Shown: positions 1,057 through 63,722 of the stretch, one piece after another | How the letters are laid out: each line of letters opens with the position of its first letter | How positions within the stretch are numbered: the stretch's first letter is position 1 | Origin: Cytophagaceae bacterium | Lineage (GTDB): Bacteria > Bacteroidota > Bacteroidia > Flavobacteriales > Flavobacteriaceae | Assembly: GCA_002710685.1 (NCBI GenBank) | Contig: PALD01000071.1 | Coordinates: forward strand, 310,001 to 374,000 | Length of the DNA stretch: 64,000 bases | Direction: 5' to 3' | The notes under the pieces: generated by a model | Told to the model about the DNA's origin: nothing | Seen by the model: only the letters and a program-made list of their open reading frames with translations | The model's database searches: none | Made by a program: the position numbers and the translations under genes

Positions 1057-1948
1057 TCTCAAAAGTTACCTGCATTTTCACGTCATCGTCTTCATCTGGG
1101 GTTTTACCGCAGTGCTGGGCGCATTGATAAGCATAGGTGCCATCGCGCTGGTGTGGTACCGTATGTTGATAGCATCGGTGGTGATTTATGGCTATATCCG
1201 GTATAAGAAGATTTCGCTTAAAGCGAAAAAAAAGACCATATTTACCCTCTGTGTGGCCGGGATTCTCATTGCCTTGCACTGGCTGGCATTTTTTGGCGCG
1301 ATAAAGATTTCTAATGTGAGCATTACCCTGGCGATGATGAGCACGGGCGCATTTTTTACGAGTATCCTGGAGCCCATTTTTTATAAGCGTAAGGTGATAT
1401 GGTATGAAATAGCCTTTGGGTTGCTGGTGGTGTGTGGGCTATACATCATTTTTGAAGTGGAGACACGGTATACCGAGGGAATCATCGTGGCCCTCGTGGC
1501 AACATTGCTCTCATCTATTTTTACATTGATCAACGGTAAGGTGGCTCAAAAACACAACCCTACGATGATTTCTTTTTATGAGCTGGGCGCCGGGGTGGTG
1601 TTCATAACCATGTTTTTACTGGTCACCTCGGGTTTTAAAGATGGGTTTTTTAACCTCCCCATGATGGACTGGACGTATATTATTATCCTGGCAACGGGGT
1701 GTACGGCCTATGCCTTTATTGCCGCTGTAAAGGTGATGAAGCACCTCACCCCTTACACGGTTATGCTGACCACAAACCTGGAGCCGGTGTATGGGATTAT
1801 ATTGGCCTATTTGATATTGGGCGATTCAGAGCAGATGCAGCCCCAGTTTTACTATGGCGCTATTTTAATTTTGGCGACGGTTATTGCCAATGGGATCTTC
1901 AAGAACAAGAGGAGAAAACGCCCCATAGTCCCAAACGTCATAGAATAG
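1043..1948 (+). CDS. EamA/DMT family transporter
   Basis: About 301-residue inner-membrane protein with ten predicted hydrophobic helices in two halves, the layout of drug/metabolite (EamA, RhaT-like) exporters; substrate unknown. I place the start at the GTG at 1043 (VQNDNLKSYLHFH...), because family members normally begin with this segment just before the first helix; an upstream ATG at 1013 would add ten residues lying wholly inside the permease gene. The 14-base overlap with the permease suggests one operon. A 17-base hairpin repeat at 1212-1228 encodes SLKAK in a cytoplasmic loop. Ends about 100 bases before accA. Confidence 0.85.
   Translation: MQNDNLKSYLHFHVIVFIWGFTAVLGALISIGAIALVWYRMLIASVVIYGYIRYKKISLKAKKKTIFTLCVAGILIALHWLAFFGAIKISNVSITLAMMSTGAFFTSILEPIFYKRKVIWYEIAFGLLVVCGLYIIFEVETRYTEGIIVALVATLLSSIFTLINGKVAQKHNPTMISFYELGAGVVFITMFLLVTSGFKDGFFNLPMMDWTYIIILATGCTAYAFIAAVKVMKHLTPYTVMLTTNLEPVYGIILAYLILGDSEQMQPQFYYGAILILATVIANGIFKNKRRKRPIVPNVIE
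1212..1228. repeat. Mini-hairpin repeat (in EamA gene)
   Basis: TTTCGCTTAAAGCGAAA; encodes SLKAK. Confidence 0.75.
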
Positions 1949-2020
1949 ATTGATATGCTGATGTTTAGGTGTTAGTAAGTTTTGGGCCCTTTCCCATTGT
2001 CCATACACCTTTAAATCCCG

Positions 2021-2028
2021 TATATTTG
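2021..2028 (+). promoter_or_regulatory. Bacteroidota-type promoter for accA
   Basis: TATATTTG matches the -7 element TAnnTTTG; a TTG at 1997-1999 lies 21 bases upstream as the -33 element. The accA start is 23 bases downstream. Confidence 0.55.
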
Positions 2029-2051
2029 TCCCCACTGCTAAAATTTCCCAA

Positions 2052-3005
2052 ATGGAATATCTAGAGTTTGAACAACCCATAAAAGAACTGGAAGAACAGC
2101 TTGAGAAATGCTCTGTTATAGGTGCAGAAAGCAACGTTGACGTTAGCAACACCTGTAAGCAGATAGAGAAAAAGCTGAACGAGACCAAAAAAGAAATATA
2201 CAAGAACCTTACCTCCTGGCAGCGGGTTCAATTATCCCGCCATCCTAACCGTCCCTACACGCTAGATTATATCAAGGCATTGTGTGGAGATACCTGGCTG
2301 GAGCTGCACGGCGACCGTAATGTCAAGGATGACAAGGCGATGATAGGCGGCCTGGGCAAGATAGGTGACCAGAGCTTTATGTTTGTAGGGCAACAGAAGG
2401 GATATAATACCAAAACAAGGCAATACCGCAACTTTGGTATGGCAAACCCTGAGGGATACCGCAAGGCGCTACGTCTTATGAAAAGTGCTGAGAAATTTGG
2501 TGTACCTGTTGTATGTCTCATCGACACTCCCGGGGCATATCCCGGGCTGGAGGCCGAAGAAAGGGGGCAGGGAGAAGCCATTGCTCGTAACATACTTGAA
2601 ATGACCAGGCTTACCGTGCCCATTATCGTGGTGATCATTGGCGAAGGTGCCAGTGGCGGAGCGCTGGGTATAGGTGTGGGCGACACGGTACTTATGCTGG
2701 AAAACACCTGGTATAGTGTGATTTCTCCAGAATCGTGCTCATCCATTTTATGGAGGAGCTGGGAATATAAGGAGCAAGCTGCCGAAGCGCTTAAACTGAC
2801 CGCCAAGGACATGAAGAAGCTGTCTCTTGTGGACAAGATTGTGAGAGAACCTCTAGGAGGGGCACACAGCGATAGGGACAAGACCTTTGATACCGTAAAA
2901 AAGGAAATCCTGCAAGCTTTTGACGACTTAAAAAACTTATCAAAAGAACAACTTGTTGATAAGCGCATGGACAAATATTCTAATATGGGGGTATTTAAGG
3001 GGTAA
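2052..3005 (+). CDS. accA: Acetyl-CoA carboxylase carboxyltransferase subunit alpha
   Basis: Alpha subunit of the carboxyltransferase half of acetyl-CoA carboxylase; with AccD it moves the carboxyl group from carboxybiotin to acetyl-CoA to give malonyl-CoA, the first committed step of fatty acid synthesis in the cytoplasm. 317 residues, the normal length. The N-terminal helix pair (residues 1-50) is followed by the crotonase-like core with LHGDR near residue 85, TPGAYPG near 160, and the [12 protein letters not shown] oxyanion-hole segment near 200. Own promoter and a downstream hairpin terminator make it a likely single-gene unit. Nothing unusual. Confidence 0.97.
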
Positions 3006-3030
3006 ACTCAAACGTTTATCGGAAAATATT

Positions 3031-3061: not shown

Positions 3062-3065
3062 ACGC

Positions 3066-4806: not shown

Positions 4807-4820
4807 TTTGGCGAAAGCCT
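4807..4820. repeat. Mini-hairpin repeat (intergenic)
   Basis: TTTGGC-GAAA-GCCT; after the dnaB terminator. Confidence 0.6.
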
Positions 4821-7767
4821 ATTCTTGTTCTTGATATGCCTTTATGGCATCATACAGCACCTGCTGAATCTGCGTGCGCGTGTTTAAACTATACAACCTG
4901 GTATTATCACGTGTGGGCAGGACCCGGTTGGATAAAAATACATACAGTAAATCTTCTTGAGGGTCCAACCATACCATGGTTCCCGTAAAACCAGTGTGGC
5001 CAAAGCTTTCCATACTGGCATCTTTGGCAACATTGTTGCCCACACCCTGATACTCCAGGTTGGGCTTATCAAAACCCAGTCCGCGGCGGTTGCCATTTTC
5101 TGGAAATTGTACCTTGGACCATTCTTTCAAGGTACTTTCTTCAATATACCGTTCACCGCCATAGGTACCCATGTTAAGGTACATCTGCATTAATTTTGCA
5201 AGGTCGTTTGCATTAGCAAAAAGGCCGGCGTTGCCCGAGACCCCGCCCATCATGATGGCGCCTTCATCATGGACGCGGCCGTGTATGGGCTCATGTCTAA
5301 ATAAATAGTCATGCTCCGTGGGTATTATCCTCTCCAGTGGAAATTTATCTAACGGGTTGTAACCTAGGGTCGTGGCACCCAGGCGGTCATAAAAATGTTC
5401 GTGAAGGTAGGTTCTGTATTTCTCTCCGGTAATGTTTTCTATAATAGTGGGGTTGAGGTAAAAGACAAGGCCAGAGTATAAATATTTTGCCTCTTTTTCC
5501 AGCGGTGATTTTTCTATGGCTTTAAAGATTTTCTTTTTGTAGTTGCGGTGCAGCCACATTTCATCAGTGATTTTTATGGGAAACCGGGCAGATGAATCCT
5601 TTTTAAACGTGTTCCATTTGTATGAACCGTTGTTCCGCAAGGTGTTTTTCCAAAACGGGATCCACGGTTTTAAACGGGCCTGGTGCGCCAGTATTTGTTT
5701 AAAGGGTATACCAGCTTTGTTTGAGTTCTTGAATTTGGGCAGATAGGTGTCAATCCCTGCCTGTAGGCTAAATTTCCCCTGGTCATATAACTGCATCAGG
5801 ATGGGCAATGTGGATGAAATCTTGGTCACCGAGGCCAAATCGTACAGGTCATCCTGCTCCACCTTGACCGTATCGCTATATTTGTGCAGGCCATAAGCTT
5901 TTTCAAAGACCACCTTGCCATTTCTGGCAACAAGTACCACACCGCCGGGTATGGCCCTTGCATTTATGGCTTGTTGCATGAGAGAGTCAATACCCTTGTG
6001 CAACAGGCTTGATTTCATCCCGGCATCTTCGGGTAGGGTATATTCAAAACGGCCATTGGGGTCGATTTCAAGACCATCACCGGCCTTGAACTTTGAGCCA
6101 ATGCCCACGGGCAGTCTTCCATTAGCACCTATCCCTCCAAAAATCAACTGTGCGGTCAGTTCCTGTGTGAGCCTGCTATCTTGATAAGCTTCGATAAGAC
6201 CAGCGGCATCCTCCAGATGATCCAGTTTGTCAATGGCATATGGGTTCTTAAAGAAGGCGAGCACCGTATTGTCTTGTTGCGCTAATTGCGAAATAAAATC
6301 CTGTAAACCATCAGTGTATGTTACCACATTGTTAGGCCTGATACTGCTATCGTGCAGCCCGCCGATGATGATATCATAGGCCGCTAGGGTATCTTTGACT
6401 GCCTTGATCTGTTCTGGTTTTGCATCGTCAGGCAGTTGAAAATGAGTTACCTGGGCGTAAAGGTCCAGCGTCTCTTGAAATTTTGTCTTTTGGCTTGCGC
6501 CAAAGGATACCGAGGCAATCTTCAAGGTGTCCAGCCTTTTTATGGGCAACAGGTTATCATCATTTTTCAGGACCGTGAGGGTGGCCTTGGTCAGGTTGCG
6601 GTTGAGCAGCATGGCCCCGGTCTTGTGCAATCGTGGCTGTATGCCTTCCGCGGAAGCGGGTGTATATTTATCCAGGCCCACCCATTGTTTTGCGGCAAGC
6701 ACCTTGCGGCAGCGGGCGTCTATCTCCTCCTGTGAGACCTTCCCTTGTTTAATGGCTTTTTCTATTTCGGCGATGGCCTTGGGGAAATCCTCGGTGAGTT
6801 CAAGGATGTCATTACCCGCCAGTATGGCGCGCATGTCCACAACGCCGGTCTCGTTGCCGGCGGTCACGCCCTTCATGTCCATGGCATCTGTGATGACAAG
6901 TCCCTTAAACCCAAGTTCATTTTTGAGCAGGCCGGTAATAATGGGTTTTGATAGGGTAGAAGGTGCCTGTGTTGAGTCTAGTGCAGGGATGTTGAGGTGG
7001 GCGACCATCATGCCGCTTATACCTGCATCAATTGCCTTTTTAAAGGGGTAAAGCTCCAGGGAGTCAAGACGGGCCCTGCTGTGGTTGATTTGTGGCAATG
7101 CGTAGTGCGAATCTGTAGCGGTATCGCCATGCCCAGGAAAATGCTTGGCAGTGACCAGCACATTTTCTTCCTGCATTCCCTGCATGTAGAGGATGGCCTT
7201 GTCAGCGACTTTTATTTTGTTTTCACCAAAGGACCTGTAGTTGATCACGGGATTTTGTGGATTGTTGTTGACATCCATCACCGGGGCAAAGTTGAGGTGC
7301 ATGCCTACCAATTTAATCTGGCGGGCGACCTCCATGCCCATTTCTTCAAGCATCGCATCATCTTGTATGGCCCCCAGCGCCATTTGATAAGGAAAACTCA
7401 TGGCGTTATCCAGGCGCATGCCTATTCCCCACTCAGCATCTATCGCTCCCAGCAAGGGGACCTGGGCAGCTTCTTGATAGGTATTCATAAGCTCGATTTG
7501 CTTTTCAGGAGTGCCCTGAAAGAATACCAGGCCACCTATTTTTTGTTCTTTTACGAGCTTTAAGATAGCCTCCTTATGTGCTTCTCCCTTGTTAGAATAT
7601 GCCCTGGCCATAAACAATTGGGCAATGCGTTGCCGTGGCGTGAGCACATGCATGAGCGAGTCGACCCAAGGGCTATTAGTATATTGTAAAAAGGCAGGTT
7701 CTTGTGCGGTTAGGCTTCCACCGGTGGCAAGCAGTAAAAAAAATAGGGTGATAAAATATCTTTTCAT
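4819..7767 (-). CDS. Secreted GH3 N-acetylhexosaminidase-like / serine beta-lactamase-like fusion
   Basis: 982 residues with a signal peptide (MKRYFITLFFLLLATGG...TAQ). Residues about 35-370 are a glycoside hydrolase family 3 (NagZ-type) barrel: KHFPGHGDTATDSH carries the catalytic His/Asp pair of NagZ-like enzymes and TDAMDMKG the probable nucleophile Asp. A GH3 C-terminal domain follows (to about 570). Residues about 590-982 are a class C beta-lactamase/penicillin-binding-like serine hydrolase with SVTK (SxxK) near 645 and an HTG motif near 925. Such fusions are common in Bacteroidota and probably act on peptidoglycan fragments in the periplasm; the substrate of each half is inferred. Convergent with dnaB. 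Confidence 0.9.
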   Translation of the reverse strand: MKRYFITLFFLLLATGGSLTAQEPAFLQYTNSPWVDSLMHVLTPRQRIAQLFMARAYSNKGEAHKEAILKLVKEQKIGGLVFFQGTPEKQIELMNTYQEAAQVPLLGAIDAEWGIGMRLDNAMSFPYQMALGAIQDDAMLEEMGMEVARQIKLVGMHLNFAPVMDVNNNPQNPVINYRSFGENKIKVADKAILYMQGMQEENVLVTAKHFPGHGDTATDSHYALPQINHSRARLDSLELYPFKKAIDAGISGMMVAHLNIPALDSTQAPSTLSKPIITGLLKNELGFKGLVITDAMDMKGVTAGNETGVVDMRAILAGNDILELTEDFPKAIAEIEKAIKQGKVSQEEIDARCRKVLAAKQWVGLDKYTPASAEGIQPRLHKTGAMLLNRNLTKATLTVLKNDDNLLPIKRLDTLKIASVSFGASQKTKFQETLDLYAQVTHFQLPDDAKPEQIKAVKDTLAAYDIIIGGLHDSSIRPNNVVTYTDGLQDFISQLAQQDNTVLAFFKNPYAIDKLDHLEDAAGLIEAYQDSRLTQELTAQLIFGGIGANGRLPVGIGSKFKAGDGLEIDPNGRFEYTLPEDAGMKSSLLHKGIDSLMQQAINARAIPGGVVLVARNGKVVFEKAYGLHKYSDTVKVEQDDLYDLASVTKISSTLPILMQLYDQGKFSLQAGIDTYLPKFKNSNKAGIPFKQILAHQARLKPWIPFWKNTLRNNGSYKWNTFKKDSSARFPIKITDEMWLHRNYKKKIFKAIEKSPLEKEAKYLYSGLVFYLNPTIIENITGEKYRTYLHEHFYDRLGATTLGYNPLDKFPLERIIPTEHDYLFRHEPIHGRVHDEGAIMMGGVSGNAGLFANANDLAKLMQMYLNMGTYGGERYIEESTLKEWSKVQFPENGNRRGLGFDKPNLEYQGVGNNVAKDASMESFGHTGFTGTMVWLDPQEDLLYVFLSNRVLPTRDNTRLYSLNTRTQIQQVLYDAIKAYQEQE
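6645..6656. repeat. Mini-hairpin repeat (in GH3 gene)
   Basis: Palindrome CTTCCGCGGAAG; encodes ASAE. Confidence 0.65.
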
Positions 7768-7854: not shown

Positions 7855-7871
7855 TTTGGCTTAAAGCCAAA
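7855..7871. repeat. Mini-hairpin repeat (intergenic)
   Basis: TTTGGC-TTAAA-GCCAAA, between divergent genes. Confidence 0.75.
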
Positions 7872-7911
7872 TATACTAGGCATAGTCTTTGATACGTTGT
7901 AAATTCACCAT

Positions 7912-9767: not shown

Positions 9768-10640
9768 TTACAGCAAGGCAATTTTATCTAGTGCGTACTG
9801 TATAAGACGTTGCGTTGTTTCTTCGGGGTTTTTACTGAAAGTCCCCAAAGCCCTATTTGCAAGGATTGCATTGAGTGAAATAGCCTCGTGCCCCAGTAAT
9901 TTTGCAAGGCCGTATATACCAGAGGTCTCCATCTCAAGGTTTGTGACCTTTAAGTTCCCGTGTTTAAAACTGGCAATTTTATCGTTGAGCCGGGGATCTT
10001 CAAGTTTGGCGCGCAACACCCTTCCCTGAGGACCGTAAAATCCCACATTTGTAGCAGTAAAACCTGTATATATTTCGCTTGAAGCGAAATGAACACTCAA
10101 CATATCGCTGCCCTCAACAACATAGGGTGTGCTCTTGTCTTTATTCCAGTTGGTGTGTTTTACAAAAGCTGCTTGAATCTCCTGGTCTTGTAGGTCAAGG
10201 CTATCATAAAACTGCAGCAAACTATCAAAACCTATGGCTCTTTCACTTATAAGAAAGCTGTCTATGGGGATATCTGGCTGTATGGCACCACTCGTCCCTA
10301 TGCGGATTACCTTAAGGCTTGTGAGTTCTTTTTTTATGGACCTTGTAGAAAAATCGATGTTTGCCAGTGCATCGAGCTCATTGAGCACAATGTCAATATT
10401 GTCAGTCCCTATGCCCGTGGAGATCACGGTGATTTTCTTGCCTTTGTAAAACCCGGTTTGTGCTTTAAACTCCCGCTTGTGCTTGGTGAGCAGGATTTCA
10501 TCAAAATGTTGTGTGACCTTCTCTACCCGGTCTGGGTCGCCCACGGTGATAACGGTGTGCGCAAGGTCTGTGGGTTTTAAGTTGAGGTGATAGATACTGC
10601 CGTCCTCGTTGAGGATGAGCTCTGATGATGGTATGTGCAT
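9768..10640 (-). CDS. Nucleoside phosphorylase (uridine phosphorylase family)
   Basis: 290 residues, cytoplasmic. The phosphorolysis of nucleosides to base plus (deoxy)ribose-1-phosphate is inferred from the PNP/UDP family fold: VGDPDRVEKV near residue 33, the phosphate-binding GIGTDNIDIVLNEL near 77, IRIGTSGA near 113 and the substrate-pocket NLEMETSGIY near 235. The family signature fits uridine phosphorylase best, but the exact base is not decided here. Last gene of a four-gene reverse operon (gap of two bases to the DUF1835 gene). A hairpin repeat at 10073-10089 encodes FASSE. Confidence 0.87.
   Translation of the reverse strand: MHIPSSELILNEDGSIYHLNLKPTDLAHTVITVGDPDRVEKVTQHFDEILLTKHKREFKAQTGFYKGKKITVISTGIGTDNIDIVLNELDALANIDFSTRSIKKELTSLKVIRIGTSGAIQPDIPIDSFLISERAIGFDSLLQFYDSLDLQDQEIQAAFVKHTNWNKDKSTPYVVEGSDMLSVHFASSEIYTGFTATNVGFYGPQGRVLRAKLEDPRLNDKIASFKHGNLKVTNLEMETSGIYGLAKLLGHEAISLNAILANRALGTFSKNPEETTQRLIQYALDKIALL
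10073..10089. repeat. Mini-hairpin repeat (in nucleoside phosphorylase)
   Basis: TTTCGCTT-G-AAGCGAAA; encodes FASSE. Confidence 0.75.
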
Positions 10641-13022: not shown

Positions 13023-14999
13023 ATGCGGTTTTCTTGCTATAATCTAGATGATAATCAATTACTTGAAATTTACACCTCTTTATTGATGCCCCGGTTGATT
13101 GAAGAAAAAATGCTCATCCTCCTGCGTCAGGGCAAGATAAGCAAGTGGTTTAGCGGGATAGGTCAAGAAGCCATTGCCGTGGGTGTGGCCCTGGCGCTGC
13201 AAGAGGATGAATACATCTTGCCCATGCACCGCAACCTGGGCATATTTACCACGCGCAAGGTACCATTGAACAGGCTGTTTGCGCAATGGCAGGGCAAGGC
13301 ATCAGGATTTACAAAGGGCAGGGACAGGAGTTTTCATTTTGGCACCCAGGACCACAACATAGTCGGGATGATATCTCACCTGGGACCACAAATGGGAATT
13401 GCTGATGGTATTGCCCTGGCAAGCAAGCTGAGAAACGAGAAAAAGGTTACCGCCGTATTTACCGGCGAGGGAGGCACCAGCGAAGGTGATTTTCACGAAG
13501 CCCTCAACGTGGCCGCAGTATGGCAGTTGCCCGTGATTTTTTGTGTCGAGAACAATGGTTATGGGCTCTCAACCCCCATAAATGAACAATATAACTGTAA
13601 AAAACTAGTCCATCGGGCGGTGGGGTACGGCATGGATGGCCATACCATAAACGGCAACAATATTATTGACGTTTACACGAAAGTCTCTCAGCTGGCCCAG
13701 GAAATGCGCGAAAATCCCAGGCCCGTTCTCATCGAGTTTGAAACCTTCAGGATGCGTGGGCATGAAGAAGCCAGTGGTACAAAATATGTCCCGCCAGAAC
13801 TGCTGGAACAATGGGCACGCCTGGACCCGGTCGATAATTTCAAGGACTTCCTGATTGCAAAAGGCATCCTTTCGCAGCAGCGAAACGATACATTGAGCAA
13901 AGCCCTGCACCAGCAGATTGACGAAGCCTGGGAAACAGCAAATACTGAACCGCCCATAGAATCCACCGCCGCACAGGAGCTCGCCGATGTATATGCGCCC
14001 TACCAACCAGTGGAGGTGGCGGCAGGCAATGTGACTGAAAACCTGCGTTTTATAGATGCGGTCTCGGCTGGCTTGCGCCAATGCATGGAGCGCCATGACA
14101 ACCTTGTGCTGATGGGTCAGGATATCGCTGAGTATGGCGGCGTCTTCAAGATCACCGAAGGTTTTGTAGAGCGGTTTGGCAAGGCACGCGTGCGCAATAC
14201 GCCCATTTGTGAGTCTGCTATTGTCGAGGCGGGCTACGGTCTTGCCGTCAATGGTTACAAAGCCGTGGTGGAGATGCAGTTTGCAGATTTTGCCTCGTCT
14301 GGGTTCAACCCCATCGTCAACCTACTGGCAAAAAGCCATTACCGCTGGGGGCAGGCTGCAGATGTGGTGGTGCGCATGCCCTGTGGTGCTGGCGTTGGTG
14401 CGGGACCCTTTCACAGCCAGACCAATGAGGCCTGGTTTGCCCATACCCCGGGTTTAAAGGTGGTCTATCCGGCATTTCCGGTGGATGCCAAGGGCCTCTT
14501 GATTGCAGCAATTGAAGACCCTAACCCCGTCATGTTTTTTGAGCACAAAGCGCTGTACCGCACCATCAGGCAGGAGGTGGCAATAAACTATTACAACCTT
14601 CCGCTGGGCAAGGCCGCCGTTATCGCTCAGGGCGAAAAGGCCACCGTGGTGACCTATGGTGCGGGGGTGCACTGGGCCCTTGATGTGTTGCCCCACTTTC
14701 CTGCCGGCACGATAGATATTATTGATTTGAGAACCTTGATTCCGATGGATTTGGAGACCATCAAGGCATCAATAAGCAAAACGGGAAGGGCGTTGATATT
14801 AACTGAAGATAGCAATATGGGCAGCATTGCTTCAGATATTGCGGCAAGGCTGGGCGAGGAGTGCTTTGAACTTCTGGATGCGCCGGTAAAAAGGGTGGCA
14901 AGTCTTGACACCGCTGTTCCTTTCGCCGAAAGGCTTGAAAATATTTACCTGCCCAAAGAGCGTTTGATAACGGCTTTGACAGCGCTTCTCAACTATTAA
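13023..14999 (+). CDS. Fused 2-oxoacid dehydrogenase E1 component, alpha plus beta (branched-chain type)
   Basis: 658 residues uniting both E1 subunits of a thiamine-diphosphate 2-oxoacid dehydrogenase, most like the branched-chain (2-oxoisovalerate) enzyme. Alpha half about 1-320: GEGGTSEGDFHEALNVA and ENNGYG form the ThDP/Mg motif near residues 150-185. Beta half about 340-658: GQDIAEYGGVFKITEG near 365 and MPCGAGVGAGPFHSQ near 455. It would make branched-chain acyl-CoA primers for the iso-fatty acids typical of Flavobacteriia. Single-gene fusion is the usual Bacteroidota form. E2 and E3 are not in the window. A hairpin repeat at 13870-13885 encodes LSQQRN in the inter-half linker. Confidence 0.92.
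   Translation: MRFSCYNLDDNQLLEIYTSLLMPRLIEEKMLILLRQGKISKWFSGIGQEAIAVGVALALQEDEYILPMHRNLGIFTTRKVPLNRLFAQWQGKASGFTKGRDRSFHFGTQDHNIVGMISHLGPQMGIADGIALASKLRNEKKVTAVFTGEGGTSEGDFHEALNVAAVWQLPVIFCVENNGYGLSTPINEQYNCKKLVHRAVGYGMDGHTINGNNIIDVYTKVSQLAQEMRENPRPVLIEFETFRMRGHEEASGTKYVPPELLEQWARLDPVDNFKDFLIAKGILSQQRNDTLSKALHQQIDEAWETANTEPPIESTAAQELADVYAPYQPVEVAAGNVTENLRFIDAVSAGLRQCMERHDNLVLMGQDIAEYGGVFKITEGFVERFGKARVRNTPICESAIVEAGYGLAVNGYKAVVEMQFADFASSGFNPIVNLLAKSHYRWGQAADVVVRMPCGAGVGAGPFHSQTNEAWFAHTPGLKVVYPAFPVDAKGLLIAAIEDPNPVMFFEHKALYRTIRQEVAINYYNLPLGKAAVIAQGEKATVVTYGAGVHWALDVLPHFPAGTIDIIDLRTLIPMDLETIKASISKTGRALILTEDSNMGSIASDIAARLGEECFELLDAPVKRVASLDTAVPFAERLENIYLPKERLITALTALLNY
13870..13885. repeat. Mini-hairpin repeat (in E1 gene)
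   Basis: TTTCGC-AGCA-GCGAAA; encodes LSQQR. Confidence 0.7.
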
Positions 15000-16641: not shown

Positions 16642-17757
16642 GTGATAGAACAGCATATCCTTATCATGGGTGGTGGCCTTGCCGGCCTTACCGCAGCAAT
16701 CCACCTCACACAGGGAGGACACGCGGTGACCGTTATTGAAAAATCCCCATACCCACGCCATAAAGTATGCGGCGAGTATATCTCAAACGAGACCTTGCCC
16801 TATTTAAAAACGCTGGGTGTTGACCCCATGAAAGACGGGGCAATACCTATTGATACATTTAATTTTACACACATCAATGGTAAAAATTTCAGGTCGAGCT
16901 TACCACTGGGGGGCTATGGTATCAGCCGGTTTAAGATGGATGCCCTGCTTTTTGAAAAAGCAAGGGACCTGGGCTGTACCTTTGTTTTTGATAGGGTCGT
17001 TGAGGTTCGGTTTGAACAGGGTTTATTTTATGTGGAAACAGCAAATGATAAAACCTTCAAGGCGGGGTTGGTCATAGGTGCCCACGGCAAGAGGAGTAAC
17101 CTTGACGTATCGCTTTCGCGAAAGTTTGCCGCCCGCAAAAGCCCGTGGCTGGCCATAAAGGCCCATTATACCTGCGATGTACAAGAAAACGAAGTGGCAC
17201 TTCACAACTTTAAGGGCGGGTATTGCGGCATTTCAAAAGTTGAAGATGATGCGGTAAATGTATGCTATCTGGCAACATATGAAAGTTTTAAAAATTACCG
17301 GGATATCACAGCATATCAAGACCAGGTACTTTGTGAAAATCCATATTTAAGAGATTTTTTTGCCACAGCAAAAATGACCTTTAAAAAACCCTTGACCATT
17401 GGCCAGGTGTCCTTTGACAATAAAGAACTGGTAAAAGACCATATCTTGATGTGCGGTGACAGTGCCACATTGATTCATCCGCTTTGCGGCAATGGGATGG
17501 CCATGGCCATTATGGGGGCAAGGTTATTGAGCAAAACCATCATAAAACATTACAACCTGGGCACATTGAATCGCGAAAAACTGGAAGCTGACTATCAAAA
17601 GGCATGGAAAAAAGAATTTTATGGGAGGCTGCGCGCCGGGAGGATGTTGCAGTCTGTCTTTCAAAATGAAACACTTTCTGGGTTGACGGTAAACGTTGCC
17701 AAAACCTTCCCGGCGTTAATACCCAAAGTTATCTCCCTTACACACGGCAAACCATGA
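16642..17757 (+). CDS. FAD-dependent oxidoreductase of the type III PKS operon
   Basis: 371 residues. N-terminal Rossmann motif ILIMGGGLAGLTAAIHL binds FAD; CGEYIS near residue 43 and the second FAD motif CGDSATLIHPLCGNGMAMA near 278 match the geranylgeranyl-reductase/phenolic hydroxylase superfamily (group A flavoproteins). Starts with GTG at 16642, forced because the FAD motif begins at residue 6. Stop overlaps the methyltransferase start (ATGA). In Streptomyces srsABC a comparable flavoprotein hydroxylates alkylresorcinols made by a type III PKS; the same role is a reasonable inference here, reduction of a lipid being the alternative. Hairpin repeat at 17113-17124 encodes LSRK. Confidence 0.85.
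   Translation: MIEQHILIMGGGLAGLTAAIHLTQGGHAVTVIEKSPYPRHKVCGEYISNETLPYLKTLGVDPMKDGAIPIDTFNFTHINGKNFRSSLPLGGYGISRFKMDALLFEKARDLGCTFVFDRVVEVRFEQGLFYVETANDKTFKAGLVIGAHGKRSNLDVSLSRKFAARKSPWLAIKAHYTCDVQENEVALHNFKGGYCGISKVEDDAVNVCYLATYESFKNYRDITAYQDQVLCENPYLRDFFATAKMTFKKPLTIGQVSFDNKELVKDHILMCGDSATLIHPLCGNGMAMAIMGARLLSKTIIKHYNLGTLNREKLEADYQKAWKKEFYGRLRAGRMLQSVFQNETLSGLTVNVAKTFPALIPKVISLTHGKP
17113..17124. repeat. Mini-hairpin repeat (in FAD oxidoreductase)
   Basis: Palindrome CTTTCGCGAAAG; encodes LSRK. Confidence 0.75.
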
Positions 17758-19498: not shown

Positions 19499-20289
19499 AA
19501 GAATTCAATACGGCACAAGAGAACGAGTGGGCACTTATCTTGGGAGGTAGCTCTGGTCTTGGGTGGGCTTCCGCCAAAAAATTAGCGAGCCACGGCCTTA
19601 ACCTCTGCATCGTGCACCGTACCCGCCGCAGCAAGTTGGCCGATTTTAATACAGGTTGTGAAGAATTCCGCAAGAGCGGAATTAAAGTTCAAGACTTTAA
19701 CATAGACGCGCTCAAAGCGGAAAATGCGCAGCAGGTGCTTGATTTTTTAAAAGAGCAGAATGCTAAAGTGCGATTGTTGTTGCACAGCATCGCAAAAGGA
19801 AATTTAAAACCTCTAGTTATTTCGGAAGAAACAAAGAATCTTTCCACAACAGATTTCACCTTGACGATAGAAGCCATGGCAACAAGCCTGTATACCTGGG
19901 CTGATGCGGTGATCAAGTCAGGTCTTTTTTCGCCGCAAGGCACAATACTGGCTTTTACCAGCGAGGGGAGCACAAAACCGGCACCCAGTTATGCAGCAGT
20001 ATCTGCAGCAAAAGCCACGCTAGAAGCGTTAGTGCGAAGCATGGCGTTTGAGTATGCGCCACTGGGGATCACGGCAAACTGCATACAGGCAGGCGTGACC
20101 GATACCGAGAGTTTGCAGATGATACCGGGCAGTGATGCCCTAAAAGAGCAGGCGTTGATGCGCAACCCCTTTAAGCGGTTGACAGTCCCAGAGGACGTGG
20201 CAAATGCCGTGTACCTGCTCACGAAGGATGAAGCCAAATGGATCAACGGCACCGTTTTAAAAGTAGATGGTGGCGAGCATTTGCGATAA
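19492..20289 (+). CDS. FabL-like enoyl-ACP reductase / SDR of the PKS operon
   Basis: 265-residue short-chain dehydrogenase fold. N-terminal cofactor motif GGSSGLGWASAKKL; active site SYAAVSAAK has Tyr-x6-Lys, the spacing of enoyl-ACP reductases (FabI/FabL) rather than the Tyr-x3-Lys of ordinary SDRs; C-terminal INGTVLKVDGGEHLR is typical of FabI-like ends. Likely NAD(P)H-dependent enoyl reduction, either making a special acyl starter for the PKS or supplying general fatty acid synthesis. ATG overlaps the PKS stop by 7 bases; last gene of the four-gene operon. Confidence 0.82.
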   Translation: MVKEFNTAQENEWALILGGSSGLGWASAKKLASHGLNLCIVHRTRRSKLADFNTGCEEFRKSGIKVQDFNIDALKAENAQQVLDFLKEQNAKVRLLLHSIAKGNLKPLVISEETKNLSTTDFTLTIEAMATSLYTWADAVIKSGLFSPQGTILAFTSEGSTKPAPSYAAVSAAKATLEALVRSMAFEYAPLGITANCIQAGVTDTESLQMIPGSDALKEQALMRNPFKRLTVPEDVANAVYLLTKDEAKWINGTVLKVDGGEHLR

Positions 20290-21375: not shown

Positions 21376-21389
21376 TTTGGCGAAAGCCA
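21376..21389. repeat. Mini-hairpin repeat (intergenic)
   Basis: TTTGGC-GAAA-GCCA; just after the threonine aldolase terminator. Confidence 0.6.
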
Positions 21390-26635: not shown

Positions 26636-26652
26636 TTTGGCTTTAAGCCAAA
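26636..26652. repeat. Mini-hairpin repeat (intergenic)
   Basis: TTTGGC-TTTAA-GCCAAA; after the SPT-like terminator. Confidence 0.75.
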
Positions 26653-44336: not shown

Positions 44337-46145
44337 ATGAAGAAGACTAACCTATTACTCCTATTCTTCCTTGTAAGTACAATTTCATTTGCACAATGGA
44401 AACCACAGGGAGATAAAATAAAAACCGAGTGGGCAGAAAAACTGACCCCAGAAAACGCCTGGAAAGAATACCCCAGGCCCATAATGAAAAGAGAAGAATG
44501 GCAAGACCTCAATGGCCTGTGGGATTATAGTATCACAAAAGCAGGCAGTGCAAAACCAGCAGGTTTTGATGGCAAGATACTCGTTCCCTTTGCGGTAGAA
44601 TCTTCACTTTCTGGCGTTATGAAAGAAGTGGGCAAAAACAATGAACTGTGGTATGAAACCTCGTTCACGGTTCCCGCCGGCTGGAATGGTAAGAAGGTGC
44701 TACTGCACTTTGGCGCTGTAGACTGGCGTGCAGATGTATGGATAAATGATGTCAAGATAGGTAGCCATGAAGGCGGTTTTGACCCATTTTCTTTTGACAT
44801 AAGCCCATTTCTTAAAGCAGGTCAACAAAAACTTACGGTCAAGGTCTGGGACCCATCTAGTGATGGGCCACAGCCCCGTGGCAAACAGGTCATCAAGCCA
44901 GAGGGTATATGGTACACCCCGGTAACGGGCATATGGCAAACGGTATGGATGGAGCCAGTGGGAGACAAGAGTATTGCCAGCCTCAAGACCACGCCAGATA
45001 TTGATGAAAGCACCATAAAATTCAAGGCCCAGCTTGACAATGCCACGTATGGAGATGTACTTGAGGTAACCGTCCTCGATGGCGGTAAGGAAGTCGCAAC
45101 CGCTTCCGCGGAAGCGTCTCAAGAACTACAGATAACTGTTCCCGGTACAAAACTGTGGTCTCCAGAAACCCCGTTTTTATACGATACTAAAGTCAAGCTC
45201 ATCAGTAATGGTAAGGTAGTGGATGAAGTTGAGGGTTATTTTGCCATGCGCAAGATATCCATGAAACGGGATGAAAAAGGCATCATGCGCATGCAGCTCA
45301 ACAACAAAGATTATTTTCACTTTGGCCCTCTAGATCAAGGGTGGTGGCCTGACGGTCTCTATACAGCACCATCTGATGAAGCCCTCAAATATGATATTGT
45401 CAAGACCAAAGAAATGGGCTTTAACATGATACGCAAGCACGTAAAGGTAGAGCCCGCCCGCTGGTACACACATTGTGATCAACTGGGTATCCTGGTATGG
45501 CAGGACATGCCCAGCGGCGATAGGACAAAGGAGTGGCAGCCCAGGAAATTCTGGGATGGTAACGAGCTTGTAAGGTCATCACGGTCAGAACAGATTTATA
45601 GAACAGAGTGGAAAGCAATCATGGACTACCTCTATTCTTATCCCAGCATCGTTGTCTGGGTACCCTTCAATGAGGCTTGGGGACAGTTCAAGACGGTCGA
45701 GATCACAGAGTGGACAAAGGCATATGACCCATCAAGGCTGGTCAATTCTGCCAGTGGGGGCAATCACCTTGATACGGGAGACATCCTTGACCTGCACAGT
45801 TACCCAGACCCCAACCTCTTCTTGTATGATGCAAACCGTGTAACCGTACTGGGCGAGTATGGAGGTATAGGGCTACCACTTAAAAAGCACCTATGGCGCC
45901 CAGATCAAAACTGGGGCTATGTTAAGTTCAACAGCTCAAAAGAAGTTACAGATGAATATGTGGCTTACGCCAAAAAACTACAGGACCTGGTAGCTGCTGG
46001 CTTCTCCGCAGCGGTCTATACCCAGACCACGGATGTGGAAGGCGAGGTCAACGGGCTGATGACCTATGATAGAAAAGTGGATAAAGTAGAAATAAGCCGT
46101 ATAAAAAAGGCAAATGAAGATGTCATCAACGCACTGAACAAATAA
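44337..46145 (+). CDS. Secreted glycoside hydrolase family 2 protein
   Basis: 602 residues with signal peptide (MKKTNLLLLFFLVSTISFAQ). GH2 layout: sugar-binding jelly roll (about 45-200, GLWDYSITKAG, AVDWRADVWINDVKIG), immunoglobulin-like domain (about 205-290), then TIM barrel (about 300-600) with acid/base Glu in PFNEAWGQ near 440 and nucleophile Glu in LGEYGG near 500. Relatives include beta-galactosidases and beta-glucuronidases, but the substrate is open. Ends the galM-GH5-GH2 operon. A perfect 16-bp repeat (45101-45116) inserts ASAEA at a loop. Confidence 0.88.
   Translation: MKKTNLLLLFFLVSTISFAQWKPQGDKIKTEWAEKLTPENAWKEYPRPIMKREEWQDLNGLWDYSITKAGSAKPAGFDGKILVPFAVESSLSGVMKEVGKNNELWYETSFTVPAGWNGKKVLLHFGAVDWRADVWINDVKIGSHEGGFDPFSFDISPFLKAGQQKLTVKVWDPSSDGPQPRGKQVIKPEGIWYTPVTGIWQTVWMEPVGDKSIASLKTTPDIDESTIKFKAQLDNATYGDVLEVTVLDGGKEVATASAEASQELQITVPGTKLWSPETPFLYDTKVKLISNGKVVDEVEGYFAMRKISMKRDEKGIMRMQLNNKDYFHFGPLDQGWWPDGLYTAPSDEALKYDIVKTKEMGFNMIRKHVKVEPARWYTHCDQLGILVWQDMPSGDRTKEWQPRKFWDGNELVRSSRSEQIYRTEWKAIMDYLYSYPSIVVWVPFNEAWGQFKTVEITEWTKAYDPSRLVNSASGGNHLDTGDILDLHSYPDPNLFLYDANRVTVLGEYGGIGLPLKKHLWRPDQNWGYVKFNSSKEVTDEYVAYAKKLQDLVAAGFSAAVYTQTTDVEGEVNGLMTYDRKVDKVEISRIKKANEDVINALNK
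45101..45116. repeat. Mini-hairpin repeat (in GH2 gene)
   Basis: Perfect palindrome CGCTTCCGCGGAAGCG; encodes ASAEA. Confidence 0.7.
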
Positions 46146-46994: not shown

Positions 46995-47823
46995 TAAAAT
47001 CGATTATCTTCTTGTTTACATCTCTATCATAGAGCGAATGATTGAGCCCTTCTGTGATGATGAGTTGTGAACCCCTCCAGTTTTTATGGATGTTTTTTGA
47101 TCCGCTCAACGGTGTGATTCTATCGTCCTTATCATGAATTATCAGCCCCGGGGTTTTGATGTTCCTGGCAAAGAGGGAGCTGGCAAAGCTGCTGCTCTTG
47201 AATCCAAACCTTTTTTGAAAGTATGCATCGAGTTGTTGCATCACTCTTTGGCGCAAGCCTAATATAGATCTATACTCCCCTAGGATACTATCAAGGTCAT
47301 CAGGAGGACCCAGTAAAACGGCTTTTTTAATATTGTTGTCCTTGCTCTGTGAGAGTTCATATAGTGTGGTCATGGCCCCCACGCTGTGACCTATGATATA
47401 TTGTGGGGCATACCGGGAGATGATTGTATGCAGCACATCCCTGTACAAGGGCACATACAGGTTTGTGCCGGTGCTGTGCCCATGTGCCGGAGCATCAAAT
47501 GTATAGATGTCATACCCCTGGGGGATCAATTGCTCAATGAGCATCTTCCAGCGGTGGCTATTGCTCTCCCATCCATGAACGAGGAGGATGGTGGGGCCTT
47601 TGCCCGGCCAGTGATAGACTTGTATCTCTAGCCCGTCATGTTCTACCCTAGCTTCTTTAGCGTTGTCCAGAAATGCTTTGTGGTGCTCGCCTATCCTGCC
47701 CCTACGGGGTTTGCTAAAAAGGTCAAAAGCCTTTTTTTGAGTTCTTGCGGGCGAGAAGAGACTGAGCATGTTGAGATAAGTGCCTATGGCCCTGGGAACT
47801 AATTTTTTAAAACTTTCGCGCAT
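46984..47823 (-). CDS. Alpha/beta hydrolase
   Basis: 279 residues, cytoplasmic. The fold is shown by ILLVHGWESNSHRW (oxyanion region, near residue 80), nucleophile Ser in IGHSVGAMTTLYE near 145, Asp in LIIHDKDDRITP near 227 and His in EGLNHSLYDRD near 265. Substrate unknown. The last codons and the stop (TAA at 46984-46986) lie inside a hairpin repeat. Its ATG is only six bases downstream of a terminator hairpin of the preceding small gene, see 47829-47847. Confidence 0.85.
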   Translation of the reverse strand: MRESFKKLVPRAIGTYLNMLSLFSPARTQKKAFDLFSKPRRGRIGEHHKAFLDNAKEARVEHDGLEIQVYHWPGKGPTILLVHGWESNSHRWKMLIEQLIPQGYDIYTFDAPAHGHSTGTNLYVPLYRDVLHTIISRYAPQYIIGHSVGAMTTLYELSQSKDNNIKKAVLLGPPDDLDSILGEYRSILGLRQRVMQQLDAYFQKRFGFKSSSFASSLFARNIKTPGLIIHDKDDRITPLSGSKNIHKNWRGSQLIITEGLNHSLYDRDVNKKIIDFISA

Positions 47824-48979: not shown

Positions 48980-50728
48980 ATGAAGAATTTATTAGGAATT
49001 TTAAGCATGATCATGATGTTTCTTATGTATGTGCCCGCGATGGCACAAGGTATGGACAAGGATGGTTTACAGGTTACACCCCGCGTGGGTTATGATTTTC
49101 CCACGTATGATAACAATACACCTTATATAGACTATAAGGGAGGGATTGAAGCTGGACTCTCAGTTGATTATTACTGGAAGTGGTTTGGCGTGGGAGCAGA
49201 TTTTGATTTTATAAAAAATCAACCTCAGAGCACATTTCCCACGGACAATCTCTTTGATGCCGGGGGCAATGCATTTACGAGCTTTAACCTCGATGAAAAA
49301 GATATAACCCGAATATTTTATGGTATAGGTCCAGATGCTAAATGGCATAACAAGAAGGGTAATTTTATTGCAGAACTCAATACACGTGCTGGCCTTGCTT
49401 CTATTAAGGGAGGACGTACCCTGCTTGAAGGAAACACATCAACAACTTCTAATCAACTGCTCAATTTTCATGCGGGTTATGACGATAAGAATGTATTTTC
49501 TGCAAAGGGGCAGTTGAGGTTTACCTATCTCTTCAATAAAAATTTTGGAGTAAATGTGGGCGGATATTACCTGAGGCACTTTAACACACAAGAACAGGTA
49601 CAAGGTGGTCTTGCCAGTGCATATTATCCATTTACCACCGCTGATGGGGCAACCTTTCTAGATCAGGGAGGTATTTCATTTAGAGAAGAACCCTGTGATT
49701 GCGACATCTATTCCCTGGGGGTATTTGCTGGAGTAACCATAAAATTCAATAAAAAAGAAAATGTTTGCCCCGTATGTAAAAAAGACCATGAACCGCATTG
49801 CTGCGCAACCTGTGGATGTAACGTTACCATAACGGCAAAGGACAAGTTTACCGGTACCATCCTTCCCGGGACTGACGTGGTACTCATTGACATGGATGGC
49901 AATATCACGCATGAGGGCACCACAAACGCGTATGGGGTGGTCGTTTTTGAGAATGTAAAAGAAGACAATTATGTCATAAAGGGTAAATTATATGATGTCG
50001 ATCTAGTAGAGACCGCTTTGGCGAAAGCCGATTTTGAAGATTGCCAAAAAACAGCCGGTATCCAAAAGGAAATCCTGTATGGTGATGAAAACTTCATCCT
50101 TAAGGGAAAAGTGGTTGAATGCAACACCACAGAAGGTATCGATGCCGTGGATGTTATCTTGAAAGATACCCTGCGTGCATGGCAAAAAAATACCCTTTCT
50201 GATGCTGGAGGTGATTTTATCTTTCATCTCAAGCAGGCTTCTAACTACACCTTGAAGGGTAATAAAGATGGTTATTTTTCTAACGAAGTGGGTGTTTCAA
50301 CCACATCATATAACAGGAACTCGACACTGTACATTGATTTTGAAATGTGTGTAAACCCATGTGGGCAGGCCATAAGACTGGATAATATAAACTTTGACCT
50401 TGACAAATGGGATATCCTGCCGGCGTCAGTGCCAGATCTTCAAAAAGTGGTGAACCTCATGAAGGCCAACCCCACCATAAAAGTGGAGATGTCATCACAC
50501 ACGGATTCTCGCGGGAGCAACCTATATAACCAAGACCTTTCTCAAAAACGTGCACAATCTACAGTGGAATACCTCGTCTCACAGGGTATTTCTCGTGATA
50601 GGTTGATAGCCCGCGGTGCTGGTGAGACCGAACTGCTCAATCGCTGTGCAGATGGCACTTCATGTAGTGAGGCAGAGCATAGGATTAACAGGAGGACCGA
50701 GTTTAAGGTAGTATGCCCCCAGCAATAA
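48980..50728 (+). CDS. Large OmpA-family outer-membrane protein with Cys cluster
   Basis: 582 residues, signal peptide (MKNLLGILSMIMMFLMYVPAMAQ). Residues about 30-255 form an outer-membrane beta-barrel-like region; a Cys cluster CPVCKKDHEPHCCATCGC follows at about 263-281; then two carboxypeptidase-regulatory-like domains (about 282-360 and 380-460) and a C-terminal OmpA peptidoglycan-binding domain (about 470-582; SSHTDSRGSNLYNQDLSQKRA, INRRTEFKVV). Anchors the envelope to peptidoglycan. Repeat at 50017-50029 encodes ALAKA. Likely single-gene unit; a weak hairpin follows. Confidence 0.88.
   Translation: MKNLLGILSMIMMFLMYVPAMAQGMDKDGLQVTPRVGYDFPTYDNNTPYIDYKGGIEAGLSVDYYWKWFGVGADFDFIKNQPQSTFPTDNLFDAGGNAFTSFNLDEKDITRIFYGIGPDAKWHNKKGNFIAELNTRAGLASIKGGRTLLEGNTSTTSNQLLNFHAGYDDKNVFSAKGQLRFTYLFNKNFGVNVGGYYLRHFNTQEQVQGGLASAYYPFTTADGATFLDQGGISFREEPCDCDIYSLGVFAGVTIKFNKKENVCPVCKKDHEPHCCATCGCNVTITAKDKFTGTILPGTDVVLIDMDGNITHEGTTNAYGVVVFENVKEDNYVIKGKLYDVDLVETALAKADFEDCQKTAGIQKEILYGDENFILKGKVVECNTTEGIDAVDVILKDTLRAWQKNTLSDAGGDFIFHLKQASNYTLKGNKDGYFSNEVGVSTTSYNRNSTLYIDFEMCVNPCGQAIRLDNINFDLDKWDILPASVPDLQKVVNLMKANPTIKVEMSSHTDSRGSNLYNQDLSQKRAQSTVEYLVSQGISRDRLIARGAGETELLNRCADGTSCSEAEHRINRRTEFKVVCPQQ
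50017..50029. repeat. Mini-hairpin repeat (in OmpA gene)
   Basis: TTTGGC-GAAA-GCC; encodes LAKA. Confidence 0.6.
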
Positions 50729-51632: not shown

Positions 51633-51650
51633 TTTTCGCTTTAGCGAAAA
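51633..51650. repeat. Mini-hairpin repeat (intergenic)
   Basis: TTTTCGC-TTTA-GCGAAAA, four bases after a lipoprotein stop. Confidence 0.75.
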
Positions 51651-54905: not shown

Positions 54906-54921
54906 TTTGGCGAAAGCCAAA
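54906..54921. repeat. Mini-hairpin repeat in pyrophosphatase pseudogene leader
   Basis: TTTGGC-GAAA-GCCAAA; minus strand encodes LAFAK. Confidence 0.75.
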
Positions 54922-58494: not shown

Positions 58495-58514
58495 GTTTTG
58501 GCTATAGCCAAAAC
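58495..58514. repeat. 20-bp perfect mini-hairpin repeat upstream of asnB
   Basis: GTTTTGGCTATAGCCAAAAC, fully self-complementary. Confidence 0.75.
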
Positions 58515-60583: not shown

Positions 60584-62596
<2,013 letters not shown>

Positions 62597-62618
62597 GATA
62601 CCTTTCATTTTTTTTACT

Positions 62619-62650
62619 AAACCCTGGGCAAACTGTCTGGGGTTTTTTTA
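62619..62650 (+). terminator. Terminator after gyrB
   Basis: AAACCC (62619-62624) pairs with GGGTTT (62640-62645), then T run. Confidence 0.75.
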
Positions 62651-62713
62651 TTGATTGTAAGTGATTATGTTAAATCATTTTCTATTTTAGCTGTTCTCCA
62701 AATCTTCTTGAAC

Positions 62714-63721
62714 ATGAAAAAGCTTATTTATCTATTTGTATTACTTACAGTTGGCCTTTCGGCGAAAGCCCAGGTGCTGGGAAGCGATTTTGAAACCGTG
62801 GTCGCCGCTGGCAAGCAGGATGCCTCTACATTGATGGGGGCTTACATAAACCCAGCGATGGAGGGTTTGATATTTGCCATGAACGGTGGCTGGTACCACA
62901 CCGCAAAGACCCATAAAAAGTTTGGTTTTGATATTTCACTGGCAGTAAACGCCTCTATGGTTTCTTCAGATAAGGAAAATTTCAATATAACAGATTTTGA
63001 TTATGAAGGTACCGTCGTGGCAACCCCAGGGACAACGCCCACCGTTATGGGAAGCGGTGACCCCGCGACCATTACCTATGTTACCAGCGATGGTGCAGAG
63101 ACCGTAGAATTTGAAATGCCCGAGGGCATCAAGGATGACCTTCCGCTCAATGCGGTACCGGCGCCAACGCTACAAGCAACCGTGGGGCTGTTCTATGATA
63201 CAGATGTTTCCCTGCGCTATACGCCTAAAGTGGGGGATGAGTCAGTAAAGGGTCAGTTATATGGCGTGGGGCTCAAGCATAACCTCATGCAGTATTTTGG
63301 CCCGCTGGATAAATTGCCCCTCAATGTTGCCATCATGGCGGGCTACACCAATATGACCGTTGATTATGATATAGAAGATGGCAGCACCTTTGACGGTAGT
63401 AACCAGCGCGCAGAGTTCAGCCTTGATTCTTATACCGTGCAGGCAGTAGCATCGCTGGATTTTCCATTTGTTACACTTTATGGCGGCCTGGGCTATGCCG
63501 GTGGTAAATCTTCACTTGGTGTCCTGGGGACCTATGTAGTTGAATATAATGGTGGAGAAACGGAAACCATAGTCGACCCCATCTCCTTGAGCTACAATCC
63601 CGGTGGGGTACGGGCAAACCTTGGTGCAAGCCTCAACCTTGCCTTCTTCCATATCTTTGCAGATTATACCATACAGGATTACAGTAACCTTACGGCGGGA
63701 GTAGCGTTTAGCTTTCGCTAA
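62714..63721 (+). CDS. DUF6588 family outer-membrane beta-barrel protein
   Basis: About 335 residues. Start ATG 62714 (MKKLIYLFVLLTVGLSAKAQ) gives a signal peptide; an upstream ATG (62651) gives a poor leader. Repeating polar-hydrophobic strands, INPAMEGLIFAMNGGWYHTAKTHKKFGFDISLAVN and GVRANLGASLNLAFFHIFADYT, match the DUF6588 family of Flavobacteriia, porin-like proteins of unknown cargo. The signal peptide's SAKA (62755-62770) and the end FSFR plus stop (63707-63722) both come from hairpin repeats. Normal barrels of this kind end in Phe, here followed by Arg. Confidence 0.78.
   Translation: MKKLIYLFVLLTVGLSAKAQVLGSDFETVVAAGKQDASTLMGAYINPAMEGLIFAMNGGWYHTAKTHKKFGFDISLAVNASMVSSDKENFNITDFDYEGTVVATPGTTPTVMGSGDPATITYVTSDGAETVEFEMPEGIKDDLPLNAVPAPTLQATVGLFYDTDVSLRYTPKVGDESVKGQLYGVGLKHNLMQYFGPLDKLPLNVAIMAGYTNMTVDYDIEDGSTFDGSNQRAEFSLDSYTVQAVASLDFPFVTLYGGLGYAGGKSSLGVLGTYVVEYNGGETETIVDPISLSYNPGGVRANLGASLNLAFFHIFADYTIQDYSNLTAGVAFSFR
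62755..62770. repeat. Mini-hairpin repeat in DUF6588 signal peptide
   Basis: CCTTTCGGCGAAAGCC; encodes LSAKA at the cleavage region. Confidence 0.65.
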
Positions 63722-63722
63722 A
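63707..63722. repeat. Mini-hairpin repeat holding the DUF6588 stop codon
   Basis: TTTAGC-TTTC-GCTAAA; encodes FSFR and supplies TAA. Confidence 0.7.

Follow-up and report, generated by a model that had tools for sequence, protein, structure and literature searches.

Short hairpins conserved in their base pairing look like an unrecognized genome-wide DNA signal in a flavobacterial lineage

We consider here a family of tiny hairpins that recurs through a 64,000-nucleotide stretch of DNA from a Cytophagaceae bacterium of the family Flavobacteriaceae (GCA_002710685.1; bases 310001-374000 of contig C70, PALD01000071.1), called the window below, and through the rest of the source genome (G000; 4.99 Mb in 80 contigs, an assembly listed as 99.99% complete with 8.79% contamination). 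The property conserved in this family is base pairing, not the letters that form the pairs, and the family looks like an unrecognized genome-wide DNA signal. As to function, the reading we favor, though it is unproven, is uptake or recombination of self DNA. In what follows, G labels denote the genomes compared and C labels contigs; G022 belongs to a different genus of the same family, to which we refer as the sister genus. The strict form of the hairpin is TTTSGC, a loop and the complementary GCSAAA arm, where S is C or G; the wider family also takes in double hairpins and hairpins in which a GNAA loop closes a core stem of 3 bp. The over-represented words fall into four classes: (i) TTTSGC-TTAAA/TTTAA-GCSAAA; (ii) TTT-SGC-GNAA-GCS, an oriented form with the loops GAAA, GGAA, GCAA or GTAA, which is the commoner one and does not require the 3' AAA; (iii) TTTSGC-TNNA-GCSAAA; and (iv) double hairpins, among them CTTTCGGCGAAAG and CGCTTTCGCGAAAGCG, whose single GGC or GC can pair to the left or to the right.

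The first-pass annotation of the window had put the density of these repeats beyond chance, a claim to be given up if counts were no higher than in shuffled sequence, and the comparisons made here sustain it. The whole genome holds 713 matches to TTTSGCN3-5GCSAAA and 6 to a reversed-pattern control. Contig C70 taken together with 40 kb of C26 (433 kb) has 54 inverted repeats with the arm TTTGGC and 29 with TTTCGC, where five order-3 Markov copies average 0.2 and 0.0. Set against one order-4 Markov copy, TTT-hairpins are in excess with loops of 4 bases (341 vs 24) and 5 bases (175 vs 11); with loops of 3 bases they are not (19 vs 18). Among 564 predicted genes, 184 family sites lie in coding sequence as compared to 0-5 (mean 2.6) in 20 shuffles that preserve protein and codon usage, which rules out protein sequence or codon usage as the overall cause, with single sites partly constrained by peptides. 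Contigs C70 and C26 together carry 220 sites in 581 kb, or 0.38 per kb (214 sites under slightly different merging), a density that extrapolates to ~1,850 copies genome-wide if contaminant contigs are ignored.

Pairing was followed with the arm letters left free. In the same 433 kb, 83 TTTxGC-GCyAAA sites with 4- or 5-base loops carry C or G at both x and y, and every one of them is complementary, with no C/C or G/G. The first stem pair was then tabulated by class over 776 kb, each site counted once and two GC-rich contaminant chunks dropped. The 177 GNAA sites have GC 92 times, CG 38 times, GG twice and CC twice (Fisher p 2e-28 on the C/G cells), and the 58 TTWAA sites are made up of GC 33, CG 22, TA 2 and CT 1, with no GG or CC (p 8e-16). 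At the inner pairs of the GNAA stem, with reads on both strands, pair 2 is GC in 138, CG in 10, AT in 3 and non-Watson-Crick in 9, and pair 3 is CG in 138, TA in 12, GC in 3 and unpaired in 3. Compensatory variants thus occur at all three core stem pairs. By eye, 6 of the 100 copies of TTTTSGCGNAAGCS listed, out of 378 in G000, are mixed, as are 14 of the first 25 matches listed from other family genomes, which hold few copies each.

The length of the stem goes with the loop. Among 206 SGC-GNAA-GCS hairpins, 118 have the 5' TTT only, 18 the 3' AAA only, 20 both and 50 neither, while both arms are extended in 49 of 57 TTAAA hairpins and, among 55 TNNA hairpins, in 29, with 13 having neither extension. 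The GNAA loop therefore goes with a three-pair stem and the other loops more often with six pairs. Folded as DNA, TTTT-SGC-GNAA-GCS has a predicted energy of -2.3 to -2.6 kcal/mol and TTTGGC-TACA-GCC one of -1.3, which reaches -4.1 once AAA is added and so fits a trade-off between loop and stem. With at least two G-C pairs beneath them, GNNA loops form DNA mini-hairpins reported to be extraordinarily stable (PMC4686876). In the GNAA class, the T-tract on the 5' side (95, 95 and 71% T at positions -3, -2 and -1) is unpaired at most sites, and no longer conserved flank was found around the hairpins.

The distribution of sites favors DNA over RNA as the level at which the signal would act. GNAA hairpins with the 5' TTT in genes are read as 51 sense and 56 antisense (p 0.70, with 12 reads from double sites excluded), and 107 of 126 single-oriented GNAA sites are inside genes, in sequence 87% of which is called coding. 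Bases preceding the hairpin are T-rich and those following it A-rich.

How did the sites arise? At eight in-gene sites, all 25 orthologous protein alignments are ungapped over a stretch of 6 residues on either side, and at the DNA level 27 of 35 comparisons at 10 sites are ungapped within the motif; the eight gapped ones comprise 2 intergenic comparisons, 3 at the variable in-gene site 176414 and 3 single relatives elsewhere. Since the alignments to orthologues are mostly ungapped, the in-gene sites compared arose by substitution and not by insertion; intergenic sites are hardly comparable, and the evidence for origin in place is that of the in-gene sites. Five chunks of G000 with foreign composition, picked after the profile was seen, hold 0 sites in 83.7 kb where ~32 would be expected. 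As to the assembly, contigs C31 and C55 (L145, L150), with a GC content of 0.67-0.68 and a tetranucleotide profile unlike the rest, are probable contaminants, and chunks of contigs C35, C60 and C75 likewise look foreign.

The family spans several genera as lineage dialects and is expanded in some lineages only. Among 59 relatives, 12 genomes of the same genus have 14-113 copies of the TTTSGCN3-5GCSAAA-type pattern (controls 8-27) and G022 has 98 (control 4); most others are near control, with G048 (18 vs 0), G042 (17 vs 4) and G023 (17 vs 6) modestly above it. The word CGCTTNCGCGNAAGCG is present in 82 copies in G000, 2-16 in its genus mates, 513 in G022, 5 in G024, 2 in G033 and 0 in the remaining genomes. 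In a sample of 397 genomes of the family that includes G000, TTTTSGCGNAAGCS has 378 copies in G000, 130 in G240, 45 in G224, 12-17 in three species of G022's genus, 13-16 in G009, G077, G351 and G111 and at most 9 in the rest, with at least one copy in 183 of the 397. The over-represented word in G022 and its genus mates, and in G240 and G224, is CTTTCGCGAAAG, by counts that take palindromes twice, and CGCTTTCGCGAAAGCG occurs in 1-2 copies in 10 of 394 other genomes of a phylum sample. Homologues of the E1-dehydrogenase gene of the window, at 64-69% identity, have no motif at the locus in 78 of the 80 matches listed.

In the sister genus the motif is CGCTTTCGCGAAAGCG, and its conservation there strongly suggests that it is actively kept in that genus; a search for a relative close enough to G000 for the same comparison found none. 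Of the sites considered in 80 kb, 12, 2, 0 and 1 have 0, 1, 2 and 3 mismatches, respectively; the comparison used the 14 with at most one mismatch, omitting those that could not be aligned. At 10 sites aligned between G022 and G276, the core is identical at 160 of 160 bases and the flanks at 670 of 814 (82%); for G022 and G427, at 4 sites, the figures are 58 of 64 and 209 of 336. Covariation in the flanks beyond the 16-bp core was looked for and amounted to one suggestive site (37570), with G240 unconvincing by eye.

Copies of CTTTCGCGAAAG in the motif-poor genus mates G001 and G010 lie in copper/heavy-metal efflux clusters with a resistance-nodulation-division (RND) pump, a CusB-like protein, a P-type ATPase and a multicopper oxidase (G010:C12, L310 and L311; G010:C6, L317; G001:C4, L312), and probably likewise in G009:C15 (L314) and G006:C32 (L315), where reading frames have the same sizes; two copies stand 2446 bp apart in G001, G006, G008 and G009. 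These copies look transferred from a motif-rich donor. In viral contigs the 17-mer was found in nine stretches and the 16-mer in 41. Some of these IMG/VR contigs (L235-L275) have several copies of CGCTTTCGCGAAAGCG, six of them in three possibly overlapping stretches of IMGVR_UViG_3300040781_000495, and are perhaps phages or prophages of motif-rich hosts; one protein query against the viral contigs gave no match.

What might such a family do? We propose tentatively, at somewhat less than even chance, a genome-wide recognition signal at the DNA level, akin to uptake sequences or to the highly iterated palindrome HIP1 and read as a hairpin. A more specific version, which we hold a little more doubtful, is a structural code: ~1,850 hairpins of single-stranded DNA, or cruciforms, of which pairing and loop class rather than letters would be read by a fold-sensing protein that marks self DNA in uptake, recombination or replication, with dialects among related genera. 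The motif would accumulate in place through base substitution. Recognition would proceed via foldback, into either a stem of three C/G pairs capped by a GNAA loop and preceded by a 5' T-tract or a six-pair stem (TTTSGC/GCSAAA) capped by a TTAAA or TNNA loop. By binding the hairpin, or else the cruciform or palindrome, a protein might identify DNA that is taken up or recombined as self, and motif-bearing alleles might spread by biased transfer, as is the case for the uptake signal sequence (USS) of Haemophilus and the DNA uptake sequence (DUS) of Neisseria. We favor self-DNA recognition because of the density of the sites, their strand neutrality, the dialects and the absence from foreign DNA, and because a flavobacterium, Riemerella columbina, has a preference for its own DNA although no uptake sequence is known for it (PMC7965970). 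The top-ranked candidate uptake words listed in that study for R. columbina and two other flavobacteria are all A- or T-rich (PMC7965970). Like an uptake sequence, the family is over-represented on both strands, in and between genes, and its in-gene sites arise in place; one fixed core word exists in the sister genus and not in G000, where letters vary and arms stay paired.

Several observations weigh against self-DNA recognition through a fold. Every known uptake sequence is a single, fixed word in duplex DNA, and the sister-genus motif is a fixed 16-bp palindrome for which a duplex-binding protein would suffice. Pairing is the rule but not absolute: in 43 of the 177 GNAA sites pair 1 includes at least one A or T, and just 7 of the 43 form an A-T or T-A pair, the commonest combinations being C/A (11) and C/T (10). 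TTTGGC-TTAAA-GCC has a predicted energy of -2.6 kcal/mol without AAA (-5.4 with it), as stable as the GNAA form, so that the loop-stem trade-off is not demanded for TTAAA, a class that may have a separate role. The full 17 bases at C70:178482 are also present in G006 and G011, peptide conservation or sharing with relatives accounts in part for sites 306934 and 311212, and two host-like 20-kb chunks (L148, L153) have one site each. ComEC is present in 8 of 8 genomes tested, and because four of these are motif-poor and four motif-rich its presence does not discriminate. No binding protein has been identified for the hairpin.

The nearest rival to self-DNA recognition is a chromosome-organizing signal, in which a nucleoid, segregation or repair protein would bind the palindrome or cruciform, with sites kept by selection on chromosome upkeep; we consider this unlikely, if clearly the best of the alternatives. 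The fixed palindrome of the sister genus, with its invariant core amid diverged flanks, would suit such a protein, as would the strand-neutral occurrence of sites in and between genes. Sites are also slightly more evenly spaced than random, with a coefficient of variation (CV) of 0.85 on C70 against 0.99 +/- 0.08, a weak signal that is not significant alone (C26 0.90 vs 0.98 +/- 0.12). On the other hand, a dimer binding duplex DNA would tolerate C/C and G/G, which are seen in none of the 83 strict hairpins and in 4 of 134 sites of the GNAA class, and a candidate protein was not found. Of the functions offered by the first-pass annotation, DNA uptake or recombination and a nucleoid-protein site are both retained, with the former leading.

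A recombination signal of the Chi type, with single strands read by an AddAB/RecBCD-type enzyme or in recombinase loading, is improbable. Hairpin reading on single strands would account for the pairing, and the sites are about as dense and as scattered as Chi. Orientation with replication is usual for Chi-like sites, however, and with GC skew as a guide no clear strand bias was found on two contigs of G000: single-oriented GNAA sites divide 26 to 41 with respect to the G-rich strand on C70 (p 0.09) and 17 to 16 on C26. In the single-contig chromosome of G224 (C1), the plus strand carries 17 of the 23 asymmetric copies of the first half and 11 of the 22 of the second; assuming an origin at the record start and a terminus at the middle, 28 of 45 have one sense, and the first half weakly suggests orientation with replication. 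About equally improbable is a HIP1-like by-product, for which methylation-dependent mismatch repair or another biased repair process would both make and preserve the motif. HIP1 offers a comparable case for which the consulted text of PMC4390886 has such a model, and the sites here do originate in place. The HIP words are nevertheless short fixed palindromes with a matching methyltransferase, while here letters vary and loops are free. In form, CGCTTTCGCGAAAGCG of the sister genus is a highly iterated perfect palindrome; in G000 most sites have loops.

Lower still we would place template-switch (quasi-palindrome) mutagenesis that perfects chance inverted repeats. It would explain the perfect arms and loops of 4-5 bases, and all 6-8-bp inverted repeats are indeed somewhat above Markov sequence. 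Yet the arms TTGGC and TTCGC stand out at loops 4 and 5 (17-38 vs 0.2-0.6) from all others, whose excess is far smaller, TTTSGC with loop 3 has no excess, and the 5' T-tract and the fixed sister motif would be left unexplained. Hairpins acting in RNA, as terminators, mRNA stabilizers or processing sites, are scarcely credible. Of 49 sites of the TTAAA class, 31 are intergenic, 13 of these between convergent genes, as such hairpins might be, but the even balance of sense and antisense and the location inside genes of most single-oriented GNAA sites speak against a role in mRNA, which the annotation had also listed; the flanks reverse the order of an intrinsic terminator, where a GC hairpin is followed by a T-run in the sense direction, and Rfam at gathering scores gave no match in the window. 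Least of all do we expect a mobile mini-element, likewise on that list, whether a repetitive extragenic palindrome (REP) moved by a REP-associated tyrosine transposase (RAYT) or a miniature inverted-repeat transposable element (MITE): the hairpin with a conserved 5' tract looks REP-like, but there is no longer conserved flank, Y1_Tnp (PF01797; IS200/RAYT transposase) has 0 matches in G000 and none in G224, and its absence together with the ungapped alignments rules such elements out for in-gene sites.

Within the window, loops of 0-11 bases were scanned and 11 strict hairpins found, all with loops of 4 or 5; the wider family has 25 sites in 64 kb, one per 2.6 kb, or 26 with the variant at 63707, close to the roughly 27 repeats, one per ~2.4 kb, first noted. 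A hairpin or palindrome is present within 2 bases of all 15 positions named in the annotation, and the forms described there fit 14 of them; at the remaining one (63707..63722, minus strand), TTTAGC-TTTC-GCTAAA, with GAAA as its loop on the minus strand, has an A-T pair and not S at arm position 4 (pair 1) and is outside the strict patterns. Hairpins with a TTAAA or TTTAA loop are at 1212..1228 (TTTSGC-TTAAA-GCSAAA, C-G arms, ungapped to orthologous proteins), 7855..7871 (TTAAA, between divergent genes) and 26636..26652 (TTTAA, between convergent genes). Other loops are TTGAA at 10073..10089, in a gene; AGCA at 13870..13885, in the E1 dehydrogenase gene and ungapped to orthologous proteins; GTAC at 33035..33050; TTTA at 51634..51649, directly 3' of a stop codon; and TATA, of the TNNA type, at 58497..58512. 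The GNAA class is found on the plus strand at 4807..4819 (TTTGGC-GAAA-GCC), 21376..21388 (GAAA, intergenic), 31104..31116 (GGAA, C-G arms), 47247..47259 (GCAA), 50017..50029 (GAAA) and 54906..54921 (full 6-bp arms), and on the minus strand at 6489..6504 (GCAA, full 6-bp arms), 19566..19578 (GGAA, ungapped to orthologous proteins), 22741..22756 (GGAA, full 6-bp arms), 45962..45974 (GTAA) and 60605..60617 (GAAA). Double hairpins are CTTTCGCCGAAAG at 14920..14932 and CGCTTTCGCGAAAG at 17111..17124, both ungapped to orthologous proteins, CGCTTTCGCGAAAG again at 28695..28708, CGCTTCCGCGGAAGCG at 45101..45116 and CTTTCGGCGAAAG at 62756..62768, and CTTTCGCGAAAG is at 29759..29770. Ahead of the gene at 7912 and beside the hairpin at 7855, ~35-43 bases within 7869-7911 are 86-92% conserved in six genus mates, in which the gene itself is ~70-73% identical; we read this upstream stretch as conserved regulatory sequence. 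Bases 4819-7767 encode a glycoside hydrolase family 3 protein fused to a beta-lactamase-like (serine hydrolase) domain.

Lastly, we compare the family with systems already described. No description of the hairpin motif was found in the part of the open-access literature consulted, in agreement with the first-pass annotation, which knew of none; as far as the portions seen go, PMC13155455 counts only inverted repeats with arms of at least 10 bp and PMC4119200 has nothing relevant to it. The DUS of Neisseria and the USS of Pasteurellaceae resemble it in having short copies, on the order of a thousand or more, that occupy both strands and lie within as well as between genes, in forming dialects and in accumulating in place; they differ in being one fixed non-palindromic duplex word, whereas here letters vary and pairing is kept. 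REPs and REPINs (REP doublets) with their RAYTs share short hairpins, a conserved 5' tract and hundreds of copies. REPs, however, are transposed and extragenic, while here 107 of 126 single-oriented GNAA sites are in genes, only the TTAAA class is mostly intergenic, and the transposase is missing from G000. Chi sites are likewise over-represented short words, but fixed, oriented and non-palindromic, unlike a family without clear orientation bias. HIP1 of cyanobacteria (GCGATCGC) is a highly iterated genome-wide palindrome of unsettled function, alternates of which replace it in some genomes according to the consulted part of PMC4390886; it differs in being a fixed 8-bp word tied to methyltransferases, while the hairpin family has loops and covarying stems. 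DNA mini-hairpins with GNA or GNNA loops share the GNNA loop on at least two G-C pairs (PMC4686876), and differ in being a biophysical motif.

If the reading proposed here is true, the cell senses the shape of its DNA at loci numbering in the hundreds to thousands, with compensatory differences among unrelated sites and loop classes tied to stem length. The hairpin signal would then be a concrete candidate for the own-DNA preference of R. columbina, and the dialects give a natural strain set for comparison across lineages. Not noted in the first-pass annotation were that pairing is kept rather than sequence, that the GNAA class does without the 3' AAA and that the family is spread over several genera. 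To our knowledge, GNA/GNNA mini-hairpins have not been described as a genome-wide signal, the known genome-wide signals (DUS, USS, Chi, HIP1 and the FtsK-orienting polar sequences, KOPS) are fixed words, and a covarying stem is seen in neither DUS nor HIP1.

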